DNA from: a virus
Virus record (IMG/VR): IMGVR_UViG_3300032032_000001
Coordinates: 1-64,000 of that record
Strand: one strand, 5' to 3'
DNA: 64,000 bases
The translations under genes and the position numbers were made by a program. Of this stretch, positions 44,074-56,420 are shown piece by piece. The notes under the pieces are model-generated. The model searched no databases. It was not told the origin of the DNA and was given only the letters and a program-made list of their open reading frames with translations. Within the stretch, counting starts at the first letter, position 1. Each line of letters opens with the position of its first letter.

Positions 44074-44837
44074 TCTGGTATTCCTTTTGCGAACTCAAGG
44101 AATTTACCGTAACTCATGATGGTGTACTCATTGGTTCCTATTGTAAGCGTGATACGCTGCCCAGTGAGAAGCGCACTTACGTGGTTAAGTGTTATGGTGA
44201 AACTCTTCTTCGGCGGCCTGCCACCAAGACAGGACAGCCCCTCAAATGAGTCCAAAAAGTTATCATCAAGCTCCTGGTGTGGGACGACGGCAACTTCGCC
44301 CCCTTTGTTAAGCTCGATTATGTAGGCTGGTATCTTTCCTTGTGAGTACGCTTGCTTCCTCAGAAACTCTAAGTCTTTCACGCTCACACTCATCTTATTG
44401 CTCTTAGTTGTCTTGGCCTCGACGAGGATACTTGGGGTTATTACATCCCTTCGGTAGCCCCATCTGGATCCGGAGGCGGGCTGTCGCTTACCATCCAGGT
44501 CTTCAGCTATTCTTACTTCTTGTTTTTTGCTGGCCTCATGGTTCGTCAACACGGCTATAGCCTCCTCTATTACTACGTAATATTTATCATTCTCGTAAAT
44601 GTCCTCAGCGCTTTTAGTCCAGTCGATTCTTCCTAGGATCATCCTAGCAAGCTCTAAGAACTTCTCGGGCACATACACCAGCACCGCTAAGCCACTCTCA
44701 ACATGCGTTATGTTGTAGTCCGTATCGAGCCGTGCCGACCCAGGACGCTTATGCATAAAGAGTCCAGGAAGGAACGGTAACGCGTCGATAACGACTAACT
44801 TGCCTTGCGGGCCGGTGCATATACTCAATCTAGCCAT
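44070..44837 (-). CDS. PD-(D/E)XK nuclease, possibly resolvase-like
   Basis: In this 255-aa protein, residues 125-176 contain a D131...E140-x-K142 nuclease signature (RDVITPSILVEAKTT). A helix and strand follow (FLRKQAYSQGKIPAYIIEL), an arrangement seen in Hjc-type and related phage nucleases. The first 120 residues are a separate alpha/beta domain of unknown type. The gene overlaps the RecA-like gene by eight bases and the Cas4-like gene by four, so all three are likely coupled. The exact substrate (junction, flap or overhang) cannot be told from the sequence. Confidence 0.65.
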   Translation of the reverse strand: MARLSICTGPQGKLVVIDALPFLPGLFMHKRPGSARLDTDYNITHVESGLAVLVYVPEKFLELARMILGRIDWTKSAEDIYENDKYYVVIEEAIAVLTNHEASKKQEVRIAEDLDGKRQPASGSRWGYRRDVITPSILVEAKTTKSNKMSVSVKDLEFLRKQAYSQGKIPAYIIELNKGGEVAVVPHQELDDNFLDSFEGLSCLGGRPPKKSFTITLNHVSALLTGQRITLTIGTNEYTIMSYGKFLEFAKGIPE

Positions 44838-45882
44838 CGGAAACCCTCTTCAAAACTTCTGCCCTAACTTCAGCAACCAGCTTCGGGGACTTCTTCAGTA
44901 CATCAACGACGCCCTCTAGTCCGCCTTCTATCTTGTCCTCGTAATCCAGGATGTAATAGAAGCGACCCTTGTTAAAGACTACGTTATACGCCTTGGCGCT
45001 ATTAGCAAGATCTGCGACCATATCGACCCCCTCATTAAACATGAAGGTGTACTCGCCCTCAGACCCCTCGCTTATCCCATGCTTGCCTTTGGAGATTTTC
45101 CATTTAATGTCTTTACCTACCTTCTCCTTGCCCTTCTTTATAAAGGCCCCGGGGCGTAGGTGGATATCGACAGCTTTGGCGTGCTTGAGGGCGTAGCCCC
45201 CAGGCTGGGTATACGGATTATACTTCGCTGAGTGTGCGTTCATGTTGGCCCGTACAGGGTTAATCATTACAACGCAGGTACCGTTTGGTGTACCGTCCTC
45301 GCCAGGAACACGCATGGCGCTATAGAATTTGCGACAGAAGTTACTAAGCAGTGACGCCCAAGTCGCTATTTTAGCGTCCTCACCTAGCCCTTTGACCACG
45401 TTGTCCCGAGTCTCCCCGGACCCTAACTCGTTGATAACCAGAAGCTGAAATTTCTGAGACTTTACAATCTCAAGCATAACGTCCAGCATAACCTCTGCGG
45501 GCTTATCTGAATCTTCAGAAGCTAGGTCTACGAATAGGAAATTTCCGGTGCCTGATAGATCAACACCCGCAAGCTCCATGAAAGAAGGGTCAGGTTTGTA
45601 GCCAAATGACATCCAGGCGACATTGGACTCAGCGCCATACTTCTTTTGTACCTCTGCGATAAGTCTGTTGGAAAGGTAGTCTTTACCAACGCCGTCAGGA
45701 CCAAATAACTGGATCATTGACCCAGCAGGAAGCCCACCCTTCAGAGCGATATCAAGTGACAATATCCCCGTTGGGAGTCTCGTATCGAACGGGGTAGCTA
45801 CCTCAGACATTGGCTGTATTACAGCGGCTCCGCCCATTCTTTTTTGTACACTCTTAATAAGTTGGCTTATGTCGTTAGCCAT
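44830..45882 (-). CDS. RecA/UvsX-like recombinase or RecA-fold ATPase
   Basis: This 350-aa protein has a RecA-type core. LPTGILSLDIALKGGLPAGS precedes a Walker A, GPDGVGKD (61-68). The strand LLVINELGSGE (147-157) sits where Walker B ends. The RecA-like aspartate there appears to be asparagine (N151). A later NPVRAN stretch resembles the L2/sensor region. It is about RecA length. Neighbours (two nucleases, RusA) fit strand exchange. Because of the altered Walker B, an ATP-binding recombination mediator is an alternative. The start overlaps the previous stop (TAATG). Confidence 0.75.
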   Translation of the reverse strand: MANDISQLIKSVQKRMGGAAVIQPMSEVATPFDTRLPTGILSLDIALKGGLPAGSMIQLFGPDGVGKDYLSNRLIAEVQKKYGAESNVAWMSFGYKPDPSFMELAGVDLSGTGNFLFVDLASEDSDKPAEVMLDVMLEIVKSQKFQLLVINELGSGETRDNVVKGLGEDAKIATWASLLSNFCRKFYSAMRVPGEDGTPNGTCVVMINPVRANMNAHSAKYNPYTQPGGYALKHAKAVDIHLRPGAFIKKGKEKVGKDIKWKISKGKHGISEGSEGEYTFMFNEGVDMVADLANSAKAYNVVFNKGRFYYILDYEDKIEGGLEGVVDVLKKSPKLVAEVRAEVLKRVSDG

Positions 45883-46127
45883 TATTCCTCCTCAAGCTCC
45901 TTCTTGATCTTCTTGAATTCATCAGCAAGCTCAGGGCTTACCTCCTCAAGATTCTCGTCGTAGAGCTTAGTCATGTCGTTAAATAGTTTCATTTTGAAAT
46001 CTTTGATCATGCTCGGAGCCTCGCCAGACGCGACCTTTTCCATCGCCTCATCCTCGGACTCACAGAGCTTCATTTTGATTAGGGTAGCAACCACTTGAGT
46101 TGAGTCCCCGTACTTTTCCATAGCCAT
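45882..46127 (-). CDS. small acidic helical protein, unknown
   Basis: This 81-aa protein is placed between a GIY-YIG nuclease and the RecA-like gene, with one-base overlaps on both sides. It is helical and charged (KMKLCESEDEAMEKVASGEAP) and ends in a Lys/Glu-rich coiled tail (EFKKIKKELEEE). No motif is recognised. A partner or modulator of the recombinase is suggested only by its coupling. Confidence 0.6.
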   Translation of the reverse strand: MAMEKYGDSTQVVATLIKMKLCESEDEAMEKVASGEAPSMIKDFKMKLFNDMTKLYDENLEEVSPELADEFKKIKKELEEE

Positions 46128-46621
46128 TACTTATCTCCTTCTGGGTCTAGTCTGATCAGTGAATCGCGCTCTTTACCCATGATTGTTTTAGCATGGTCCG
46201 CTCCGATCACCCCGAGGTTCACGGTGAGGTACGCACCATTAGTTAGTTCGATTATTGCGTTGTCGTCACCTGTGCACAGGAATAGGTTTCCGATAGTGTC
46301 CCCCTCCTCCAAGCAGGTATTTACCGCCCCCGCGATTTCTCGCAAGGCTTCCCTTCGGGCGTCGAAAATATTACTGAGTTCTGTTGCCACGATTCTCTCC
46401 TTCTGGTCTCTTGTTTTTGCTTTTATCAACCACTCCTCCTTGGAAGCCGTTGATCTTGTTGAAAAGCCTCTTGAGTAAATTAACCTAACAGGTCGCCTAC
46501 TCTTTGTATATCTTGCTCCACGTTCGGAGTGGTTATGCTCCCAGACGCGCCTACCCACATCGGTTGTTATGCCGGTGTAGATAGACCCGCCTGAGCACAT
46601 TACGGTGTAGACTGCCCACAC
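46127..46621 (-). CDS. GIY-YIG nuclease with extra C-terminal domain
   Basis: The first 75 residues form a GIY-YIG endonuclease domain: VYTV (4-7), SIYTGIT (13-19), arginines R24/R25, H29, and a long helix with the metal-binding glutamate around KEEWLIKA. It resembles the small YhbQ-like type. Residues 80-164 are an added alpha/beta domain (ANNT-type loop absent; GAYLTVNLGVIGADHAK visible) that I cannot assign. The start is GTG 46621, sitting at the end of a small hairpin. It may be a repair or homing-type nuclease. No intron or disrupted gene is seen next to it. Confidence 0.75.
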   Translation of the reverse strand: MWAVYTVMCSGGSIYTGITTDVGRRVWEHNHSERGARYTKSRRPVRLIYSRGFSTRSTASKEEWLIKAKTRDQKERIVATELSNIFDARREALREIAGAVNTCLEEGDTIGNLFLCTGDDNAIIELTNGAYLTVNLGVIGADHAKTIMGKERDSLIRLDPEGDK

Positions 46622-47458: not shown

Positions 47459-47672
47459 GAGCAGCCTCCTTCGTAACACTCCCACACAGAAAGCATCTGA
47501 TTTCGACGCTTAGTGCTGAGTCGTTAACGTACGAAACGCCTTCACAGAATGCTTGCGCCTCGGCCTTTGATACGGGCCCGAAAATTGAGCCACCACTATT
47601 TACTTCCTCGTAGTCGGAATCGTCTAGATCCCCTACAACAACAACATGGTATAGGTGCGGTATATCCGTCAT
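47445..47672 (-). CDS. small hypothetical protein downstream of the polymerase
   Basis: This 75-aa protein starts just at the polymerase stop and overlaps the next gene by 14 bases. It reads as alternating strand and helix (HLYHVVVVGDL, SKAEAQAFCEGVSY, SVEIRCFLCG). Three cysteines (C43, C60, C63 region) include a CFLC pair, but a full metal site is not visible. No family is recognised. Confidence 0.55.
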   Translation of the reverse strand: MTDIPHLYHVVVVGDLDDSDYEEVNSGGSIFGPVSKAEAQAFCEGVSYVNDSALSVEIRCFLCGSVTKEAAHDAG

Positions 47673-49558
47673 TTACACTCCAGCCAGTTCGAGCCGTATT
47701 TGCTCGTGGTTTCGAGCGGTACATCTAAATCAAAGTAAAAAGGGTGCCCCATAAGATATGCGATACGCTCGTTTAGCTCTTTGTCTTCAGACCACTCATT
47801 TGGTATTTCAAATACAATTTCATCATGAACCTGGATGATCATTCGACACCCAGACTTTGTAACTAGCGGGTCTTCCCACAGCTTTACCATCGCCATTTTA
47901 GTGATGTCTGCCGCAGAACCCTGAATAGGTGAGTTCTTCACCTTGCGCTCCGCTTGTGCAACATCACCACCCACCCGGGACCTTAGTCCTGGGACAAGTC
48001 GGCGACGCCCTAAGATCGTGGAGCAAAACCCAACATCTCTTGCGTCACCGATGGCTCTCTTGAAATACTTAGTCACCTTCGGAAAGGCGGAGAAGTACTG
48101 CTTGATAAGCAACCGAGCCTCATCAATATGGCAACCTAAGGTTCCCGCCAAAGCACCGGCACCCTGTCCATACATGAGTCCGAAGTTGATAGCCTTTGCG
48201 CCTTTTCTGTGGCCAAGAAGCTTTTTCTCATATTCGGAGATCTCTTCATCGTTATCGTCTTTCCTGCGAGCCTTGATGATGTCCTCATATGGAACCTTAA
48301 ACATCTTGGCCGCTGTAGACGAGTGAACGTCGAGACCGCTGCGTATGGACTCTGATAGGGTATTGTCTCCGGACAGGTGCGCCAAGATCCTCATCTCTAG
48401 TTGGGCATAATCTGCTGCGAGCAGGGTGTACCCAGAGCTGGGGAGATAGGCTGACCTAATGTACGGTGGCTGGTTTTGTAGGTTAGGATCGCTCGAACTA
48501 AGTCGCCCCGTTCTTGCGCCCGTCTGATTGAACGATGCGTGGATTTTCCCATCGACATGGATCTTTTCAAGGAGGTTAGAGATGTAAGTCCCAAGCTTCT
48601 TATCCAGATCCCTGTACTCCAGGAGCTTCTCTGCGTAGTCACAACCGTCCTTAGCCCACTTACCCAAGACATCTTTATTGAGTTGGGGTTTTCCTTTTTC
48701 CGTGTGAGACAGGGGCCTGCGCCCAAGATCCCCGAAAAAGAACTCACCCATTTGATCATTACTCTTTAGGTTTACATATAAGCGACCAGTAGCCCTCCCA
48801 AACCATTTCTGGATTGACAGGAGTTTGTCCTCGATAATCGGAGCCTGTTCGAGGAGGTCGTCTCTGTTGATGACTACCCCGTGGCGCTCCATCTCCCAGA
48901 GGACTCTGGTGAAAGGAAGCTCCGTTTTCACGTAGTAATCCCACAAGGTGGGGTATTCGTCGTCTGGTATTTCGAGAGTCAGCAACTCTTCCCTGACCTC
49001 AAAGAAAAGCTTATATGTGGCGTATGCATCAAGAGCAGCGTAGTTGCAGACTATGTCCTCGTTCTCAGCGTCAAGGAGAACTTCATGAAGCTTCCTCTTC
49101 CTCAATTGTTTACCGAACACAGCCTTAAACGGAACCATGTCGATGCCGAGGTAGTGTTTAGATAGAAACTTTAAGTCATGAGCGAGGGTGTCATCCACCA
49201 GAGCGTGCATAACCATTGTGTCGTAGACACGGTAATGATTATGTTGTGCGTGGCGGTAGACATCGATCCCTATATTAAGAAGCATCCAACAGTCAAAGTT
49301 GGCGTTATGCATAATAAGTTTTATTTCGGGATCTTCTAATAGGTCTTTGAAGTAAGGAATTACTTCAGGCCAGATGGCCCAACGTTCTTCGCCATCACTG
49401 ATAGCCAGGATGATGGCGCGGTCTTTTTGCCGAGACAGGCCGGTTGTTTCAGTATCAACCGCTAATATTGGTTTAGCGCGTAAGCGCTCCACAACTTCCA
49501 GAGCCTCGTCCGGGTCAGCGACACGCACGGGTTCCGGGAGAACAGAAAACATTCCCAT
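47669..49558 (-). CDS. polA: family A DNA polymerase with 3'-5' exonuclease
   Basis: This 629-aa replicative polymerase has a proofreading domain with D35/E37 (DTETTGL), D89 (NANFD) and Y173...D177 (YAALD). The polymerase domain has motif A with D382 (DYAQLEMRI), motif B with R450, K454, F458 and Y462 (HRKGAKAINFGLMYG), and motif C H577-D578-E579 (QVHDEI). F458 aligns with E. coli Pol I F762. There is no 5' nuclease domain, as expected for phage enzymes. ATG 49558 has AAGGAGG. It is the core enzyme of the replication module. A hairpin lies between it and the SSB-like gene. Confidence 0.95.
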   Translation of the reverse strand: MGMFSVLPEPVRVADPDEALEVVERLRAKPILAVDTETTGLSRQKDRAIILAISDGEERWAIWPEVIPYFKDLLEDPEIKLIMHNANFDCWMLLNIGIDVYRHAQHNHYRVYDTMVMHALVDDTLAHDLKFLSKHYLGIDMVPFKAVFGKQLRKRKLHEVLLDAENEDIVCNYAALDAYATYKLFFEVREELLTLEIPDDEYPTLWDYYVKTELPFTRVLWEMERHGVVINRDDLLEQAPIIEDKLLSIQKWFGRATGRLYVNLKSNDQMGEFFFGDLGRRPLSHTEKGKPQLNKDVLGKWAKDGCDYAEKLLEYRDLDKKLGTYISNLLEKIHVDGKIHASFNQTGARTGRLSSSDPNLQNQPPYIRSAYLPSSGYTLLAADYAQLEMRILAHLSGDNTLSESIRSGLDVHSSTAAKMFKVPYEDIIKARRKDDNDEEISEYEKKLLGHRKGAKAINFGLMYGQGAGALAGTLGCHIDEARLLIKQYFSAFPKVTKYFKRAIGDARDVGFCSTILGRRRLVPGLRSRVGGDVAQAERKVKNSPIQGSAADITKMAMVKLWEDPLVTKSGCRMIIQVHDEIVFEIPNEWSEDKELNERIAYLMGHPFYFDLDVPLETTSKYGSNWLECK

Positions 49559-49572
49559 CGTTACCTCCTTGG

Positions 49573-49626
49573 GGAAAAAACAGAACGCAGGAGGGAGGAG
49601 TGCGGTTAAGAAAACCTCCCCCCTGC
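49573..49626 (-). terminator. hairpin between SSB-like and polymerase genes, possible attenuator
   Basis: On the minus strand GCAGGGGGGAGG (49626-49615) pairs with CCTCCCTCCTGC (49598-49587), a 12-pair stem with one G-T wobble and a 16-base loop. It is followed by GTTCTGTTTTTT. Lying inside the operon, it could partly stop transcription after the SSB gene and so raise SSB over polymerase. Confidence 0.6.
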
Positions 49627-49645
49627 TTCTGCTAGTCTTTAGGGA

Positions 49646-50797
49646 TTAGAACGGGATGGAATCGTCGTCTTCCTCGTCGTGCCCCGCCTCATAGTGCTTG
49701 TCCAGAATGGTTTGAGCAGATCCGTCAAACGGATTGTCTCGCCCCATGGACTTTGCTTGATCATCTAGCTCCTGCATACCCAGGAAGTAATTGAAGTCGA
49801 ATGGGTCAAGATCGCCATCTCTAGCGTCCTCGATAGGTTCAGACTTCATTGCGCTAACGATGTGAAAGGACGTACGTCCCCCGCTGACTTGGTCAGCAGC
49901 AATCACAACATCGCACTCTTCCCACCCAAGCTGGGTTGGGCTATCACAACCTTGTGTGTAGGTTTTTCGACTACCAAAACCTTTCGGCTTAACACACTCA
50001 ATGATGTGGTCAGCCATGCCATGGTACTCGCACTCCTCACACGTAACAGGCGCAGTTCGCAGAGCGTCCTCATCCTCCTCGGAGATTCCTTCCTCGGAAG
50101 TATGTGACGCAAGCTCAGTCCCACAATCACCACACTTATATCCAATCGTGCTGATCTCCCCATCGGAGCAACTGGCACATTTGTTGGACACTTCGCTAAG
50201 CTTTTCGAGAAGCAGGCGCTTCTGTGAGGGCCACAGCTCCCACCAAAGCTTCCTTCCGTAGACGATGTCGTAGTCAGCGTGGGCCGAACTTGGGTGAGAA
50301 ATACGCCCATTTCGGTCCGGTGCCGGTACGCGTTCAAACGTAAAGTATTCGTAACCGTTACTACTCGTGTGTGGGATCTTGTAAAAATCCTCCATCACGA
50401 ACACGGATACAGCACACTTCTCATCTGCCCAGAAGCTCTCGTTTTCATCTTCGGCGCAATAGTAATAGAGGACGCAAGGAACCTCACGTTCACCATTCCA
50501 GCTGTTGCTGATGATTTGGCGCTTTTGCCCCGTAGGCGTTGTCACCCATTTGGCGTAGTACTTGTAGAAAGCACCCTTACTACTTGTTGGGATGATACGG
50601 ATGCGGGTCTCCATCTCATCGGGTTTGAATTTATTGTCCCGCATACGAAGCTTCCATGCCGGTACGCGCTTCTTCTCAAAGTTAGCGCCCCCAGCACCGT
50701 TGCCCTTGAAGGATTTTCCACCCTTCTTGGACAGCATCTTGCTTCGGACTTTGGACTCTTTCTGTTGTGCATGAAATTCATCAAAACTAATTGGCAT
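49646..50797 (-). CDS. phage single-stranded-DNA-binding-like protein with zinc ribbons and SSB tip
   Basis: This 383-aa protein sits between primase and polymerase. The C-terminus ends in EEDDDSIPF, nearly the DDDIPF tip by which bacterial SSB recruits partners. The body is unlike bacterial SSB. Residues 60-200 form an alpha/beta region (RIRIIPTSSKGAFYKYYAKW). Two Cys clusters follow: C207-x2-C210/C222-x2-C225, and C253-x2-C256 with C268. The overall plan (basic N-terminal arm, core, zinc site, acidic tail) resembles T4-type gp32. Function is inferred from tip and position. ATG 50797 has a poor T-rich leader but an AAGGAG site. Confidence 0.75.
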   Translation of the reverse strand: MPISFDEFHAQQKESKVRSKMLSKKGGKSFKGNGAGGANFEKKRVPAWKLRMRDNKFKPDEMETRIRIIPTSSKGAFYKYYAKWVTTPTGQKRQIISNSWNGEREVPCVLYYYCAEDENESFWADEKCAVSVFVMEDFYKIPHTSSNGYEYFTFERVPAPDRNGRISHPSSAHADYDIVYGRKLWWELWPSQKRLLLEKLSEVSNKCASCSDGEISTIGYKCGDCGTELASHTSEEGISEEDEDALRTAPVTCEECEYHGMADHIIECVKPKGFGSRKTYTQGCDSPTQLGWEECDVVIAADQVSGGRTSFHIVSAMKSEPIEDARDGDLDPFDFNYFLGMQELDDQAKSMGRDNPFDGSAQTILDKHYEAGHDEEDDDSIPF

Positions 50798-50816: not shown

Positions 50817-51782
50817 TCACGGCCTTAGCGCCGCCTCAACTGCCAGTCTTACTTCTGTCTTTGTTAAATCGTCTGGGGATATGGGTTCATCAGACCTGTA
50901 GTCAGCGACCCTCACCTCAATACCGTATAATTGATTAATAATCTTCTCAGTTGCCTCCCTTCCAGCTGAGTCGTTGTCAAGAAATAGTACAACCCTGTTT
51001 GTCACCCTTTGGAGCAGGAGAACTTGTTCCCTACTCATATGGGATCCTAGCAAGGCAACGGTGTCCGGATAACCGGACTGAACGCACCACAGGCACGCCT
51101 TAAAACCCTCGCATACCACAACTGGCATGTCAATACATGTATACATTCTTCTTGGATAGAACTTGTCTAGTCCGTAAAGAATTTTCTTCTTATCCAACTC
51201 ATAGCTTCGGTTTACTTCATAGAATTCGGAGCGGTATATTTTATACCGTGGGTGGTCTCCCCTAACCGTTCTCCCTGAGATACCAACAAGGTTTCCATTG
51301 TGGTCTCGCAGGGCGAAAGTTATCCGCTTTCGACCTCTATCAAACCCAACGTCGTAGTCCCGTAGGAGGTCAACGTTATACCCGTCCTCCACAAGACTTT
51401 TGGGGAGGTACTCGAACATACCCAACACAGCCTCCGGCAAGGAGGGCTGGTCGAGCTTAACCGTATGTAGGGTTGGTTTTTTCTTTTGCGGGCTCGCCGC
51501 AAGCTCCTGCTTTATCGTGTCTATGAGCTTGTGCCCAACTTTGAGCCTCCGAAGAAGCCCCGTTAGGGTGTAGCCCTCATTACACGTATGACAGAAAGAC
51601 ATACCGGTATGTCTAGAGTGTGTAGACTTACCGACGTAAACATAGAAGGATGGCCGACTCTCTTGCCCAGACTTGTGGAAAGGGCAGTAAGCCGGGATAT
51701 TCTCCCCCGGAGTTTCGGCTTCTATAAACCGAATATGTCCAGATAATACAGCAATGGTTTCTTCCTTGGATAGTCCGATCAT
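50817..51782 (-). CDS. DnaG-type primase (zinc finger plus TOPRIM)
   Basis: This 321-aa protein has an N-terminal CHC2-like zinc finger (C33-x2-H36 and C64-x2-C67: YCPFH, FCHTC) and a TOPRIM core with E225 (VCEGFKA) and D269/D271 (FLDNDSAG). An RNA-polymerase-like segment lies between them (GFDRGRKRITFALRD, then GISGRTVRG). It lacks the C-terminal helicase-binding domain of bacterial DnaG. The four-base overlap with the DnaB-like gene suggests they work as a pair, making RNA primers at the fork. Confidence 0.9.
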   Translation of the reverse strand: MIGLSKEETIAVLSGHIRFIEAETPGENIPAYCPFHKSGQESRPSFYVYVGKSTHSRHTGMSFCHTCNEGYTLTGLLRRLKVGHKLIDTIKQELAASPQKKKPTLHTVKLDQPSLPEAVLGMFEYLPKSLVEDGYNVDLLRDYDVGFDRGRKRITFALRDHNGNLVGISGRTVRGDHPRYKIYRSEFYEVNRSYELDKKKILYGLDKFYPRRMYTCIDMPVVVCEGFKACLWCVQSGYPDTVALLGSHMSREQVLLLQRVTNRVVLFLDNDSAGREATEKIINQLYGIEVRVADYRSDEPISPDDLTKTEVRLAVEAALRP

Positions 51783-53206
51783 CCAGTTGCCGCATCCTCA
51801 TCGATTTCATCGGGAGTTCGCGTAGATGATCTAGACTGGTCCATGAGCGGACTAGCGACAACGGCGGTTACCTCGGGTAAAGAACTGCTCTCGCTGAACC
51901 CGTCCCCTTCATCCGCATCCTCCGACACGTCGCCGATTGAGTACAGATTATCGTGGGCATACCCGAAGTTCTCGGCAGCCAACGCATGTATTGTGAATCC
52001 TTCATCAGTAGTCTCTCTCGCAGCCGCGAGATGGAGACTTATCTCCTGCTTACGCTTGTGGTAAACAAGTCGAATACCAACGTCACAGTCCATTACCGCG
52101 CCAGTGTTCATGGCTAACGATGCTGTTCCGCGAGACTTTGAGTATTTGTATGCAGACCGCTCGTTCTCTTGAAGGATCGCAAGAACGGGTATTCCGGTTG
52201 ACTTCGCAATCTGCTTGATCTGTCTGTTGATGGCAGAGAGAACCTTCCAGTCCAAAGCATTGGCGCTGGTATTAACTCCTGGGAGTTCAAGCATGTACGA
52301 AGAGTCAAGTAGGACGAAATGCGGCCTGTAGATATCAATCTTTCGACGGATCTCTGACGGACCACCCGGTGACCCATCGGCACGATCACAGTCTGTGAAG
52401 ATAAGTTCTCCTGGAAAATCAGGGGAACAGGTTTCCTCAACGGATTGTAACAAGTGGGTCTGCTCGGCTACCGAGAGCGTTGCTTCCTTTAGCCGTGTAT
52501 AGTTTATGCCCGCGTTGATGGCGGTAATACGCCTTCGCATTTGAGTCCACGTCATCTCCTTGCTGTAAACAAGGACACGACGACCAGACTTGAACAACTT
52601 TGCGGCCACAAGGAGCCCGAACCAAGTCTTCATAGACTTGGGCAGAGCCCAGACCATAATAAAGTCCCCCGGCTGGATACCTTGTGTTGCGGCATTTAGC
52701 CTGGACCATGGCCAAGGCATACCGGTGAGACCGTTTGTCTCACCCGTTCTCCGTAGCTCGTCAATGGTCTCCTCTAGGGCCACTTGTGAGAAGGTAACGT
52801 CGTTTGAACGCGTGGTTCTCTCTTGTAGCCCTCCCAACAAATCATGCAGGTTCGTTAGCGCAGAAAACGGGTCTGTCCCGATCTCCTCCTGCCATGTCGA
52901 AACCGCTTTCTCGCACTCCCTCTTTAAGTAACTCCCTTTGATTTTTTCACACAAGTCGTGGACGTTTTCCACGGCGCGGGGCAAATCTAGACTTGGGAAC
53001 TGCTCTGCGAGAGATTGCTCACTTGGGATATACCCGAAGTTATTCGGCCTTCTATAGTGAGCATCAATGGTGGAGAAAAGAGACTTAGCCTCCATTGACC
53101 CCAATGTCTTAAAATGGACGCCCTCCTTTAGAACAGACTCCCACACACGTGGTGGATCATCTGCGCGAATAACGCTTGAAATTAGTTGCAACTCCCAATT
53201 AGCCAT
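51779..53206 (-). CDS. DnaB-like replicative helicase
   Basis: This 475-aa protein has an N-terminal helical domain (about 1-130) and a RecA-fold motor. The Walker A is atypical, ALPKSMKTW (187-195), in place of the usual G-x4-GK-S/T. The strand VLLDSSYML with D301 serves as Walker B. The motif VYSKEMTW (213-220) and a later ATPase-core segment fit the family. Gene order with primase, SSB and polymerase supports it. It would unwind DNA at the fork, and the altered Walker A may still work, as in related phage helicases. The C-terminus is acidic and disordered. Confidence 0.85.
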   Translation of the reverse strand: MANWELQLISSVIRADDPPRVWESVLKEGVHFKTLGSMEAKSLFSTIDAHYRRPNNFGYIPSEQSLAEQFPSLDLPRAVENVHDLCEKIKGSYLKRECEKAVSTWQEEIGTDPFSALTNLHDLLGGLQERTTRSNDVTFSQVALEETIDELRRTGETNGLTGMPWPWSRLNAATQGIQPGDFIMVWALPKSMKTWFGLLVAAKLFKSGRRVLVYSKEMTWTQMRRRITAINAGINYTRLKEATLSVAEQTHLLQSVEETCSPDFPGELIFTDCDRADGSPGGPSEIRRKIDIYRPHFVLLDSSYMLELPGVNTSANALDWKVLSAINRQIKQIAKSTGIPVLAILQENERSAYKYSKSRGTASLAMNTGAVMDCDVGIRLVYHKRKQEISLHLAAARETTDEGFTIHALAAENFGYAHDNLYSIGDVSEDADEGDGFSESSSLPEVTAVVASPLMDQSRSSTRTPDEIDEDAATG

Positions 53207-53215
53207 GTTCCCTCC

Positions 53216-53521
53216 TTAGATCTCCTGATTTATTAGGCCTTTGATTTTTTCATTTACTTTCTCTTCACTGAGTTCTTCCGTCTCTGCCACGCGGGTAAGA
53301 AAGGTGGACTCAATTGCCTCTATGAGGCGATTAGCCGCCTCTTGAACTTCATCGGACTCGTCTACATCGTTTACGTCAGCACTCCCACAAGGCCAATCAC
53401 CGACCCGAAAACCAATCTTGGCTGATACTCGTGGTCGGTGTGAGGGCCCGTGGAAATGCTTGGAAACTTGAACTTCGTAACATAGAAGCGAGTCGATTTT
53501 CACGTTGTCTATTTTTTTCAT
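53216..53521 (-). CDS. hypothetical protein in the replication unit
   Basis: This 101-aa protein starts at ATG 53521, overlapping the previous stop by four bases. It has a beta-rich first half (YEVQVSKHF, SAKIGFRVGD) and a helical acidic second half (EVQEAANRLIEAIEST). The layout resembles the neighbour at 53518-53934, suggesting a duplicated small fold, but identity is low by eye. Function is unknown. Confidence 0.6.
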   Translation of the reverse strand: MKKIDNVKIDSLLCYEVQVSKHFHGPSHRPRVSAKIGFRVGDWPCGSADVNDVDESDEVQEAANRLIEAIESTFLTRVAETEELSEEKVNEKIKGLINQEI

Positions 53522-53934: not shown

Positions 53935-54365
53935 TACCCGACCTTGATCTTGATCTCCGCTGGGCCAACGACTCGCGGAGTCCCGAAGACCTTTTTCCGA
54001 AAATCATTAATTTGCTCAGCGGTAAACTGACCAGAGATAAGGCCCTGCTCTATAGCCTTGGAGTTGATTTTACCAATCACGCCAGGGGTCGTAAGAACCT
54101 CCATAGGGAGCGCGTGGGCAGTATAGTCGTAAGACTCTGGAGCCTTGTGGCGAGTGAATGATCCTACGGCCATTCCCTCATTACCCTCTACACCCTTGAG
54201 CGCTGTCTTAGCCTCTCCGTGCAGATGGTTGTACCGCTCGGCCAACTCGAAGAAAATGTCGAATACCTGCTGGTGGTCACCGATATACTCGGTGATCGCT
54301 TCGCGGGCTTCTTCAAAACGATTACAAGCCTCTGTGGCTTTCTTTCTTGATCCTTTGTAACTCAT
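53934..54365 (-). CDS. hypothetical helical protein
   Basis: This 143-aa protein is coupled by single-base overlaps on both sides. Residues 5-60 are helical (ACNRFEEAREAITEYIGD, FDIFFELAERYNHLHG). Residues 100-143 form a loop-rich end (TAEQINDFRKKVFGTPR). No metal site or enzyme motif is visible. Its position between the UDG-like and helicase genes suggests a DNA-metabolism accessory, but this is not shown by the sequence. Confidence 0.6.
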   Translation of the reverse strand: MSYKGSRKKATEACNRFEEAREAITEYIGDHQQVFDIFFELAERYNHLHGEAKTALKGVEGNEGMAVGSFTRHKAPESYDYTAHALPMEVLTTPGVIGKINSKAIEQGLISGQFTAEQINDFRKKVFGTPRVVGPAEIKIKVG

Positions 54366-55033
54366 TATCTGTCCTCCTTTAGAACATTGAATTTTGATGC
54401 AACATCGAGGGCGTCCTTGATGTTTCCAATTGTCTTATTCCACATACCCCCGACATTTTGTGAGGGGTCGCGGTACAGTTGATTGACCGAGGGGAGCACC
54501 ATCATCGGTACCGCATACTCAACCAGATTTCCCTGTATATATGCCTCAGTAACTCTCCCACGGGCCTCGACCACAGATGTAGGACGAAGCGTTACCCCCT
54601 TCATAGCGGCGCTGCCGAATGCGAGGATAATGTGTGGTTCTATAATGTTGATCTCTGCGTGGAGCCTGCTGCGGCAAGCTGCCAACTCCCCAGGCTTCGG
54701 CGCGGAGAGCATGTCTATCCGCCCACGGGGTCGTGGGGCCAAGCTTGAGCTTGGGCAGGACACTACCGGCGTTACCCATACATATGATGGGTCAATCCCG
54801 GCCTTCTTAAGAACGGACGCGAGGAATTTCCCTTCGCCCCCATCCAGCGGATTGCCGGTAACGGCTGCTCGCGGACTTACTCGGTCAACGACAGCAACTA
54901 TCTTGGTGTGTAGTTTCCCCTGCCCCCGTATCAATACCTTACGGTGTTTGTGTAGCGGGCAGAGGGTACAATCTCTATGGTCGAACAGAAGCTCGTCAAT
55001 CTTCTCTTCCAATACTCTTGTGTCTGAATCCAT
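54365..55033 (-). CDS. uracil-DNA glycosylase-superfamily Fe-S protein with altered motifs
   Basis: The fold resembles family 4/5 uracil-DNA glycosylases. Four cysteines match the Fe-S ligands (C22-x2-C25, C93, C120), and the scaffold segments VTPVVSCPS, PKPGELAACRSRL and PHIILAFGSAAM fit. The usual GEAPG active-site motif reads VDRVSPR (49-55), and the HPS-type motif reads VLPSVNQLYRDP (179-190), with leucine for histidine. It may therefore be catalytically inactive, bind altered DNA, or have another activity. The start ATG 55033 overlaps the helicase end by 38 bases, with GGAAG upstream. Confidence 0.7.
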   Translation of the reverse strand: MDSDTRVLEEKIDELLFDHRDCTLCPLHKHRKVLIRGQGKLHTKIVAVVDRVSPRAAVTGNPLDGGEGKFLASVLKKAGIDPSYVWVTPVVSCPSSSLAPRPRGRIDMLSAPKPGELAACRSRLHAEINIIEPHIILAFGSAAMKGVTLRPTSVVEARGRVTEAYIQGNLVEYAVPMMVLPSVNQLYRDPSQNVGGMWNKTIGNIKDALDVASKFNVLKEDR

Positions 55034-56420
55034 TCGCTACAATCTTCCGTCGTAAGTTTCTACACATGGCCCCTGCTGGGCCAAACTTGTAGTCATCAAT
55101 GACAACCACAATTGGTTCTTTTTTTCCTGGTGATTTTCTCTCAATCCTACCCTTACCTTGTTGAAATGCGCCCCACGCCTTGAAGGGTGTAGCGAAAACA
55201 AGAGTATCTAGGGCAGCAACATCAAGACCCTCCCGAGCCACCCCGAAGGTGGCGAAGGTCACATCGCTATCACGGATTACCTGTGTCCGCATGTCACCGG
55301 AGGTGTCCCCGGTTACGGCACCGGCTGTATACCTATTCATACACTCCGTGTCGAGCAACTTCTGTAAAAGTACTTTGGGATGGTCTTTACTGTGAGTCAG
55401 GACAAGGATCTTCCTCCCCTTCCCTAGCGCATCTTGCACAACGGCTAAGATTTCCCTGTTACGGGAGCCAAGCTCTGAGAAGTACGTGTACATTTTCCCG
55501 GCGGAAAACTCGCCCGTAATGTCTTTGATCCTTGAGTCATCCTTAGGCACCGTGGTCTTAACTTTCTTGAAGTAGATCTGCGCCTCAAGATCACCAACCA
55601 AGTCACTGTAGAATATCGGCCCAATATGCGCGTAATATACGTCCTCTAACCCATCCTCACGGTTAGGCGTGGCGGTCAGCCCGTATCTATTACCGTAAAA
55701 TAATGGAGCGGTCTGGCTGAATGTAGCGGCAGACAGGTGGTGGACTTCATCGAAGATGACCGTCCCAAACCTCGACCGTACGTCATGTGGGATCGTGTGT
55801 GCCCGCTTTGCGAGCGTATGGATCATTGCTAGAACAAGCGGCTTATCCCACTCCTCCTTAGACCCCTGCACGATACCAATATCATCCTCCCCTATCCCCA
55901 GAAACTCCAATGCCCGGTCTTTCCACTGATCCATTAGCCCTGAGTTATTAACAATTACTACGGCGGGGTAGCCTCTTTTAGCGATTTTCTTTAGGGCCAT
56001 TACGGTTTTCCCCTTGCCGCAGGCTAGGTTCAAAACGCCGAATTGCTGGTCCTTAAAGGCATCCCAGGCCTTTTGCTGGTCCGCGTCTCTTGGTTTAATT
56101 TTGTCCCCAAAATCAAACTTCTCTAGAGAATCTTCGAGGCGCAGTTCGCCCCACTTTCCAATTTTTTCTTTCCACTCCTCTTCCGTAAAAAAGTGCCTAG
56201 CTATTACAACGTAATCTCCCAGGTCACGTGCAAGCGAGAAAGTGTTAGTTTCCCCAGTCCTTTCGTTGACGGAGATGACTTTCGACGCGTTTATTAGCGC
56301 TTTTTTATTAGGGATCTCTTCCGAAGGGACCCACATCCAAGCAGACCGGTGCGCCCCGGAAAGAGCTTCACCAGAGTCTGTTTCGGGAAGATATAGTGGC
56401 TTTTTCTTTTTAGTAGCCAA
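54996..56420 (-). CDS. SF2 DNA helicase (UvsW/XPB-like)
   Basis: This 474-aa protein carries superfamily 2 motifs in order: Walker A CGKGKT (134-139), VIVNNSGLMDQW (Ib-like), DEVHH (224-228), GLTATPNR (247-254), LVLTHSKD and QGKGRIER (motif VI). Residues 1-110 form an N-terminal domain that I cannot assign. UvsW-like phage helicases remodel branched DNA and R-loops, and help switch from origin to recombination-dependent replication. The neighbours fit. The start ATG 56420 lies just after the XRE gene's stop. Confidence 0.85.
   Translation of the reverse strand: MATKKKKPLYLPETDSGEALSGAHRSAWMWVPSEEIPNKKALINASKVISVNERTGETNTFSLARDLGDYVVIARHFFTEEEWKEKIGKWGELRLEDSLEKFDFGDKIKPRDADQQKAWDAFKDQQFGVLNLACGKGKTVMALKKIAKRGYPAVVIVNNSGLMDQWKDRALEFLGIGEDDIGIVQGSKEEWDKPLVLAMIHTLAKRAHTIPHDVRSRFGTVIFDEVHHLSAATFSQTAPLFYGNRYGLTATPNREDGLEDVYYAHIGPIFYSDLVGDLEAQIYFKKVKTTVPKDDSRIKDITGEFSAGKMYTYFSELGSRNREILAVVQDALGKGRKILVLTHSKDHPKVLLQKLLDTECMNRYTAGAVTGDTSGDMRTQVIRDSDVTFATFGVAREGLDVAALDTLVFATPFKAWGAFQQGKGRIERKSPGKKEPIVVVIDDYKFGPAGAMCRNLRRKIVANGFRHKSIGRED

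Follow-up and report, generated by a model that had tools for sequence, protein, structure and literature searches.

According to our analysis, the gene at positions 49646 to 50797 (minus strand) of the window, i.e., the 64,000-nucleotide stretch analyzed here, which is part of a virus record 148,364 bases long, likely encodes the phage's own replication single-stranded DNA (ssDNA)-binding protein (SSB), in which an OB core of the gp32 type is combined with an acidic C-terminal tip that would dock partner proteins. The protein is deemed ordinary in function and unusual in form, being a divergent replication SSB, probably gp32-type, with a cysteine-rich insert and a docking tip of the bacterial kind. 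For one group of phages we thereby propose an SSB, encoded by a gene that searches of Pfam, PHROGs, and PDB sequences do not pick up.

The frame runs from ATG to TAA, is gene-like, encodes 383 amino acids, and has an AGGAG-like ribosome site ahead of its ATG, as judged by eye. The product starts with an arm (residues 1 to 45; positions 50663 to 50797) that is helical and then basic and glycine-rich, followed by the first part of the gp32-type OB core (residues 46 to 204; 50186 to 50662). An insert of about a quarter of the protein (residues 205 to 292; 49922 to 50185), carrying eight near-invariant cysteines, lies between the first strands of this core and its last two (residues 293 to 320; 49838 to 49921). 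A conserved helical segment (residues 333 to 370; 49688 to 49801) precedes the tail, and the C terminus reads GHDEEDDDSIPF, that is, EEDDDSIPF (residues 375 to 383; 49649 to 49675), an acidic tip resembling that of bacterial SSBs. All of these features are on the minus strand.

Sequence searches did not place the 383-residue protein in any named family. No Pfam family reached its cut-off, the only row up to an E value of 10 being DZR (E 7.7; 7.2 bits against a cut-off of 27.3), and within the same limit neither the bacterial SSB domain PF00436 nor DUF669 was matched. PHROGs returned only nonsignificant rows at E 0.051 and 5.6, and the PDB sequence search had no match. A direct search of cultured phages gave two stray partial matches (E 0.03 and 0.5), a search of the same phages with the distant member L047 gave none, and there was no match among plasmids or in a scan of bacterial genomes with two peptide patterns. 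A profile of four rows retrieved three ryanodine receptor rows from PDB (E 0.16 to 0.31), which were taken as chance. Since PF00436 was absent both from the protein and from the whole record, its identity as a bacterial-type SSB was rejected.

The fold is where the protein finds its kin. An AlphaFold model built on 18 homolog rows (pLDDT 80.3, pTM 0.71), which replaced a model with 4 close rows and a pLDDT of 40.6, predicts an OB fold, with low confidence at residues 24 to 42 and 371 to 383. In VIA-align, which re-ranks the candidates of Foldseek, the top four entries are all gp32, namely, 1gpc (Z 9.4, matched over 184 residues of the predicted model with an rmsd of 5.2), 2a1k (Z 9.2), 2atq (Z 7.2), and 8gme (Z 6.9). 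The next row scores 4.2, the yeast mitochondrial SSB 3.5, and bacterial SSBs 2.8 at most. VIA-align warns of chance below Z 8, where two of the four gp32 values lie; since a best Z of 7 to 8 is usual even for models that match nothing clearly, it is the two top gp32 rows that carry weight. Foldseek alone found nothing in PDB at E 0.001, and no gp32 was among the best 50 matches listed; against predicted viral structures it gave 20 matches at E 0.001, three of which are named ssDNA-binding proteins, with query TM-scores of at most 0.39. The core is therefore probably of the gp32-type fold. The original prediction, which had set an SSB-like tip on an unrelated body, is thus partly supported: an OB fold is indeed predicted and the body is unlike that of bacterial SSBs, but it is not without relatives, since it looks gp32-like.

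In sequence, kinship with gp32 is much fainter. A profile alignment by hhalign against nine gp32 rows gave an E value of 0.0082, a probability of 5%, and a score of 27.7, compared to 27.1 for PolA and 17.8 for primase as unrelated controls, and it paired the stretch IRIIP with IRFLP of T4 gp32. With four other phage SSBs added to the gp32 rows, the E value was 0.0013 and the probability 19%, whereas those four together with T4 gp32 alone scored only 23.2. For the nine-row gp32 profile, the real score was equaled or exceeded by one of the 200 profiles made by shuffling columns and by none of the 100 made by reversal. Comparisons of single sequences with T4 gp32, Yaboi gp81, and the Alone3 SSB were uninformative. 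We therefore call the fold gp32-type and regard common descent with gp32 as likely, not proven.

Two hypothetical proteins of PHROG 17226, a group with no assigned function, both with a CPxC motif, have by eye the look of gp32-type SSBs: L128:16031-17245 of phage SM1, a phage from which a protein of 404 amino acids is among the predicted-structure matches of the query, and L129:12945-13862 of Vibrio phage PJ32, which in addition matches an SSB PHROG at E 0.045. A PJ32 "rubredoxin-type fold protein" considered as a possible relative was set aside by eye.

The genomic setting is that of a replication block, with the order helicase, uracil-DNA glycosylase (UDG), DnaB, primase, SSB gene, and PolA, all on the minus strand. 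Immediately upstream are the Toprim primase (50817 to 51782) and the DnaB-like replicative helicase (51779 to 53206), preceded by a UDG superfamily protein (54365 to 55033) and by a helicase with ResIII/DEAD and Helicase_C domains (54996 to 56420), labeled UvsW-like in this analysis; downstream come a family A DNA polymerase with a 3'-5' exonuclease domain (PolA; 47669 to 49558) and a RecA-like recombinase (44830 to 45882). A Cas4/PD-(D/E)XK nuclease is also found further out. Between RecA and PolA the window encodes a GIY-YIG domain protein (46127 to 46621), and a similar frame occupies the same place, by eye, in L001 (9892 to 10404). A protein of 101 amino acids upstream of DnaB (53216 to 53521) has counterparts by phmmer (E 1e-5) in the L004 group as well as in the clade of the query, and is absent from loci L028, L023, L022, L013, L029, L047, L030, and L031, a distribution confounded with kinship.

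Relatives were gathered from IMG/VR by the protein itself and, since independence from it was wanted, also via primase and polymerase; the frames of 108 loci, when searched with a profile, yielded 18 distinct relatives. Loci on one contig, or on different contigs with equal scores, were counted once, the criterion being the scores and not a letter-by-letter comparison (L010 and L011 with L009, L020 with L019, L015 with L013, L051 with L047). The remote and weak L031, a frame of 504 codons, is in none of the alignments, and L030, which runs off its contig and has no end, was left out of the tip counts. The block order, from the UvsW-like helicase and UDG to DnaB and primase, is kept in 23 contig groups, some of them alike in score, and the SSB frame comes next after primase in 22 of the 23 by the query alone and in L031 by the family profile only. 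RecA follows in 18 of the 23; among the groups lacking it, L027, L023, and L015 stop within PolA or shortly past it, L030 breaks off in the SSB gene, and no RecA occurs in L013 over the 6 kb read after PolA. The family profile has exactly one match in each of 17 records, this one and 16 related, and PF00436 has none in the same 17, which may be fragments. A search with terminase yielded three rows, all below the threshold, and these were not used.

These observations bear on whether the protein is an SSB at all. It might instead be a cysteine-rich member of the replication module with some other role, such as a helicase loader or an annealing factor, in keeping with the lack of any matching named family and with an insert that makes up so much of the chain. 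We consider this very unlikely in view of the gp32 fold match, the place between primase and polymerase, and the want of a PF00436 SSB in all 17 records searched. That the protein binds ssDNA is what we infer.

The 87-base gap between the SSB gene and PolA carries a strong hairpin (49579 to 49633, minus strand), and the fold of 86 of its bases has -34.7 kcal/mol and a z of -3.2. A strong fold occurs at this place in most relatives: 14 of 17 post-gene stretches, from the window and 16 relatives, surpass their shuffles in folding by 2.7 standard deviations or more, with stem sequences that differ among relatives. For the longer gaps (L014, L012, L027, and L028) only the first 130 bases were folded, PolA starts having been set by a simple pattern. 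The stretches of L014, L028, and L047 show no such fold, that of L047 being mostly PolA coding sequence because its PolA match begins 20 bases on. A terminator scan listed none at the gap, probably because the loop is longer than the scan allows. The hairpin may reasonably be guessed to be a terminator, an attenuator, or an RNA-end stabilizer that would set SSB output above that of polymerase.

Where two Cys-x2-Cys clusters had been claimed originally, the insert holds three C-x2-C pairs (residues 207/210, 222/225, and 253/256) plus Cys268 and Cys284, so that the count of pairs had to be revised while the arrangement does come to two sets, of four cysteines each. Seven of the eight columns are Cys in all 18 aligned rows, and C210 in 17. 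From this pattern the insert looks like two zinc ribbons, the second built from one CxxC and two single cysteines. The zinc site of T4 gp32 consists of His64, Cys77, Cys87, and Cys90 (PMC3012046). At this place our query keeps only Cys108, and the two most distant of the 18 rows, L047 and L030, keep C-x-C-H...C-x2-C. The CxxC of the site is missing in seven of nine gp32 rows as well, and we did not treat the site as defining for the gp32 type.

The claim that EEDDDSIPF closely copies the bacterial SSB tip proved real. Relatives with as little as about 37% identity still conserve the tip, while it is absent in the most distant ones. Counting the query, there are 17 distinct homologs with complete sequences, of which 15 have F or W as the last residue and 12 close with [IV]P[FW]; the two others, L029 and L047, end GEEE and INYE, with no tip, and the remote L031 also has none. 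Identity to the query across nine tip-terminal relatives is 88% for residues 375 to 383, 59% for residues 46 to 204, 46% for residues 205 to 292, and 20% for the linker at 321 to 332, these nine of the 17 aligned relatives being the ones with no residues beyond the tip, a choice that favors it. Synonymous variation is seen within the tip in the codons of Asp, Ser, Pro, and Phe, and we take the tip to be kept by selection.

In the relatives with longer tails (L009, L028, the nearly identical L023 and L022, which are both among the 17 homologs and count as one kind of tail, L013, and L029), STPV, SSP, SIPV, SVPY, or SAPW stands where the tip would be. Four of these five kinds end again in Phe, as DVF, IPF, IGF, or VPF, so that a tip of this kind is terminal in short and in long tails; the chance of four of five longer tails ending in F or W is 4e-5, as computed after the tails had been seen. 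By parsimony, two changes suffice if the longer tail came first, L047 being coded long, a result that fixes neither growth or shortening nor the number of tip origins.

The tails are acidic throughout, the final 30 residues having a net charge of -3 to -12 across the 17 complete rows, and they might act as self-regulating DNA mimics that lie over the DNA site until ssDNA displaces them, the exact IPF being incidental. The Enc34 SSB, which gains dsDNA binding when its tail is removed, offers a parallel. Charge alone would not hold I-P-F, nor the Phe that closes four of the five longer kinds, and we consider the mimic unlikely as the main explanation of the tail.

Ends of this type are rare among the other frames compared. 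Of 857 open frames of at least 120 codons, taken mechanically and without overlap from the window and the loci gathered up to then, F or W closes 47, and [ILVM][PG][FW] closes three; these counts and the conservation in homologs led us to reject a chance origin of the tip. The three are an Enc34-type SSB of L102, the Yaboi gp81 SSB, and a DUF2800 nuclease of L089. None of the nine gp32 rows fetched ends in an IPF-like manner, and in the fetched loci [IL]PF closes 1 of 20 distinct frames that match a two-sequence Enc34-type profile. Mostly IPF-like ends on a gp32-type body are thus unusual among the sequences examined, which are not a census. A search of open-access papers turned up no description of a gp32-type SSB that ends in a bacterial tip.

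Other frames with aromatic ends came up in the same loci. The Enc34-type (PF10991) SSB at L102:4216-4809 ends MDDLPF, and a scan with it recovered only its own contig. At L089:2711-3931, a DUF2800/PD-(D/E)XK nuclease ends MEGIPF, an SSB-like tip on a nuclease, and adjoins an Enc34-like SSB gene that has no such end. In five loci (L084, L085, L086, L088, and L091), the Enc34-like SSB frames have the ending NP[IV]TGMPY in common, which is again a conserved C terminus with an aromatic residue.

On the reading that we prefer, a replication SSB of the phage's own, the gp32-type core would coat ssDNA at the fork, and the two cysteine sets of the insert, probably holding zinc, would stiffen or extend it. 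gp32 has a basic N-terminal arm, and the arm of our query, comparable in place, may likewise give cooperative binding. The flexible acidic tail with its I-P-F tip would dock partners and hand over the coated DNA. Likely partners would be the RecA, the UvsW-like helicase, the primase, and the UDG of the same module, and host SSB-interacting proteins (such as PriA, RecO, RecQ, and Exo I) could be partners too because the tip is so close to the bacterial consensus.

Which of these the tip serves is a question within the preferred reading. Recruitment of host SSB-binding proteins, which had been put forward in the original prediction next to competition with host SSB, is possible: the tip is nearly identical to bacterial DDDIPF, all nine gp32 rows end differently, and the record has no PF00436 SSB. 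A tip used chiefly to bring in host SSB-interacting proteins, or to contend with host SSB over them, is something we hold only tentatively, and we are equally reserved toward the more specific proposal that a gp32-type SSB converged on the bacterial tip so that these host proteins treat phage ssDNA, although its coat is a structurally unrelated protein, as if coated by host SSB. Against a host role speaks the best precedent found, the SSB of phage HK620, a non-bacterial body ending NDYPPF, whose last six residues are needed for the phage's own Sak4 recombinase to bind SSB-coated DNA (PMC5928155). Similarly, in T4 the proteins gp61, gp59, and RNase H are contacted by the acidic domain of gp32 (PMC3012046). 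With these precedents, partners from the phage's own module are at least as likely as host ones. That the tip serves the phage RecA, UvsW-like helicase, primase, PolA, and UDG only, its bacterial likeness being convergence, is plausible, if still short of even. This would agree with a module that travels together and with similar ends on other phage SSB bodies (MDDLPF in L102, IEVGW in Yaboi gp81), but among the phage proteins we recognized none that has a known pocket for an SSB tip, and two members that retain most of the module, L029 and L047, have no tip. What the bacterial SSB tip requires could be tested naturally in this family, since a like tip sits on a gp32-type body and relatives carry IPW, VPF, IGF, DVF, or none.

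Among the known systems nearest to the query, T4/RB69 gp32 has in common with it a predicted OB core, for which it is the best solved match by a wide margin, an acidic C-terminal tail, a basic N-terminal arm, and a place in a replication module; sequence likeness is near noise, however, and in contrast to gp32 the query tail ends IPF, the gp32 zinc site is lost, and a large eight-cysteine insert is present elsewhere. The HK620 SSB, of the DUF669 type, likewise joins a non-bacterial body to a DDDIPF-like end, but HK620/N4-type SSBs have a body of a different family. With bacterial SSBs (PF00436) the query shares the acidic C-terminal tip ending I-P-F and not the domain, their structural Z of at most 2.8 comparing with 9.4 for gp32. 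Enc34-type phage SSBs (PF10991) also have an acidic tail, on a different body and with an [IL]PF end as an exception. Finally, the SSB gp81 of Streptomyces phage Yaboi (PHROG 9721) adjoins a distantly related primase and ends in an aromatic residue like our query, whereas it has 267 amino acids, three cysteines, and no insert of the query's kind.
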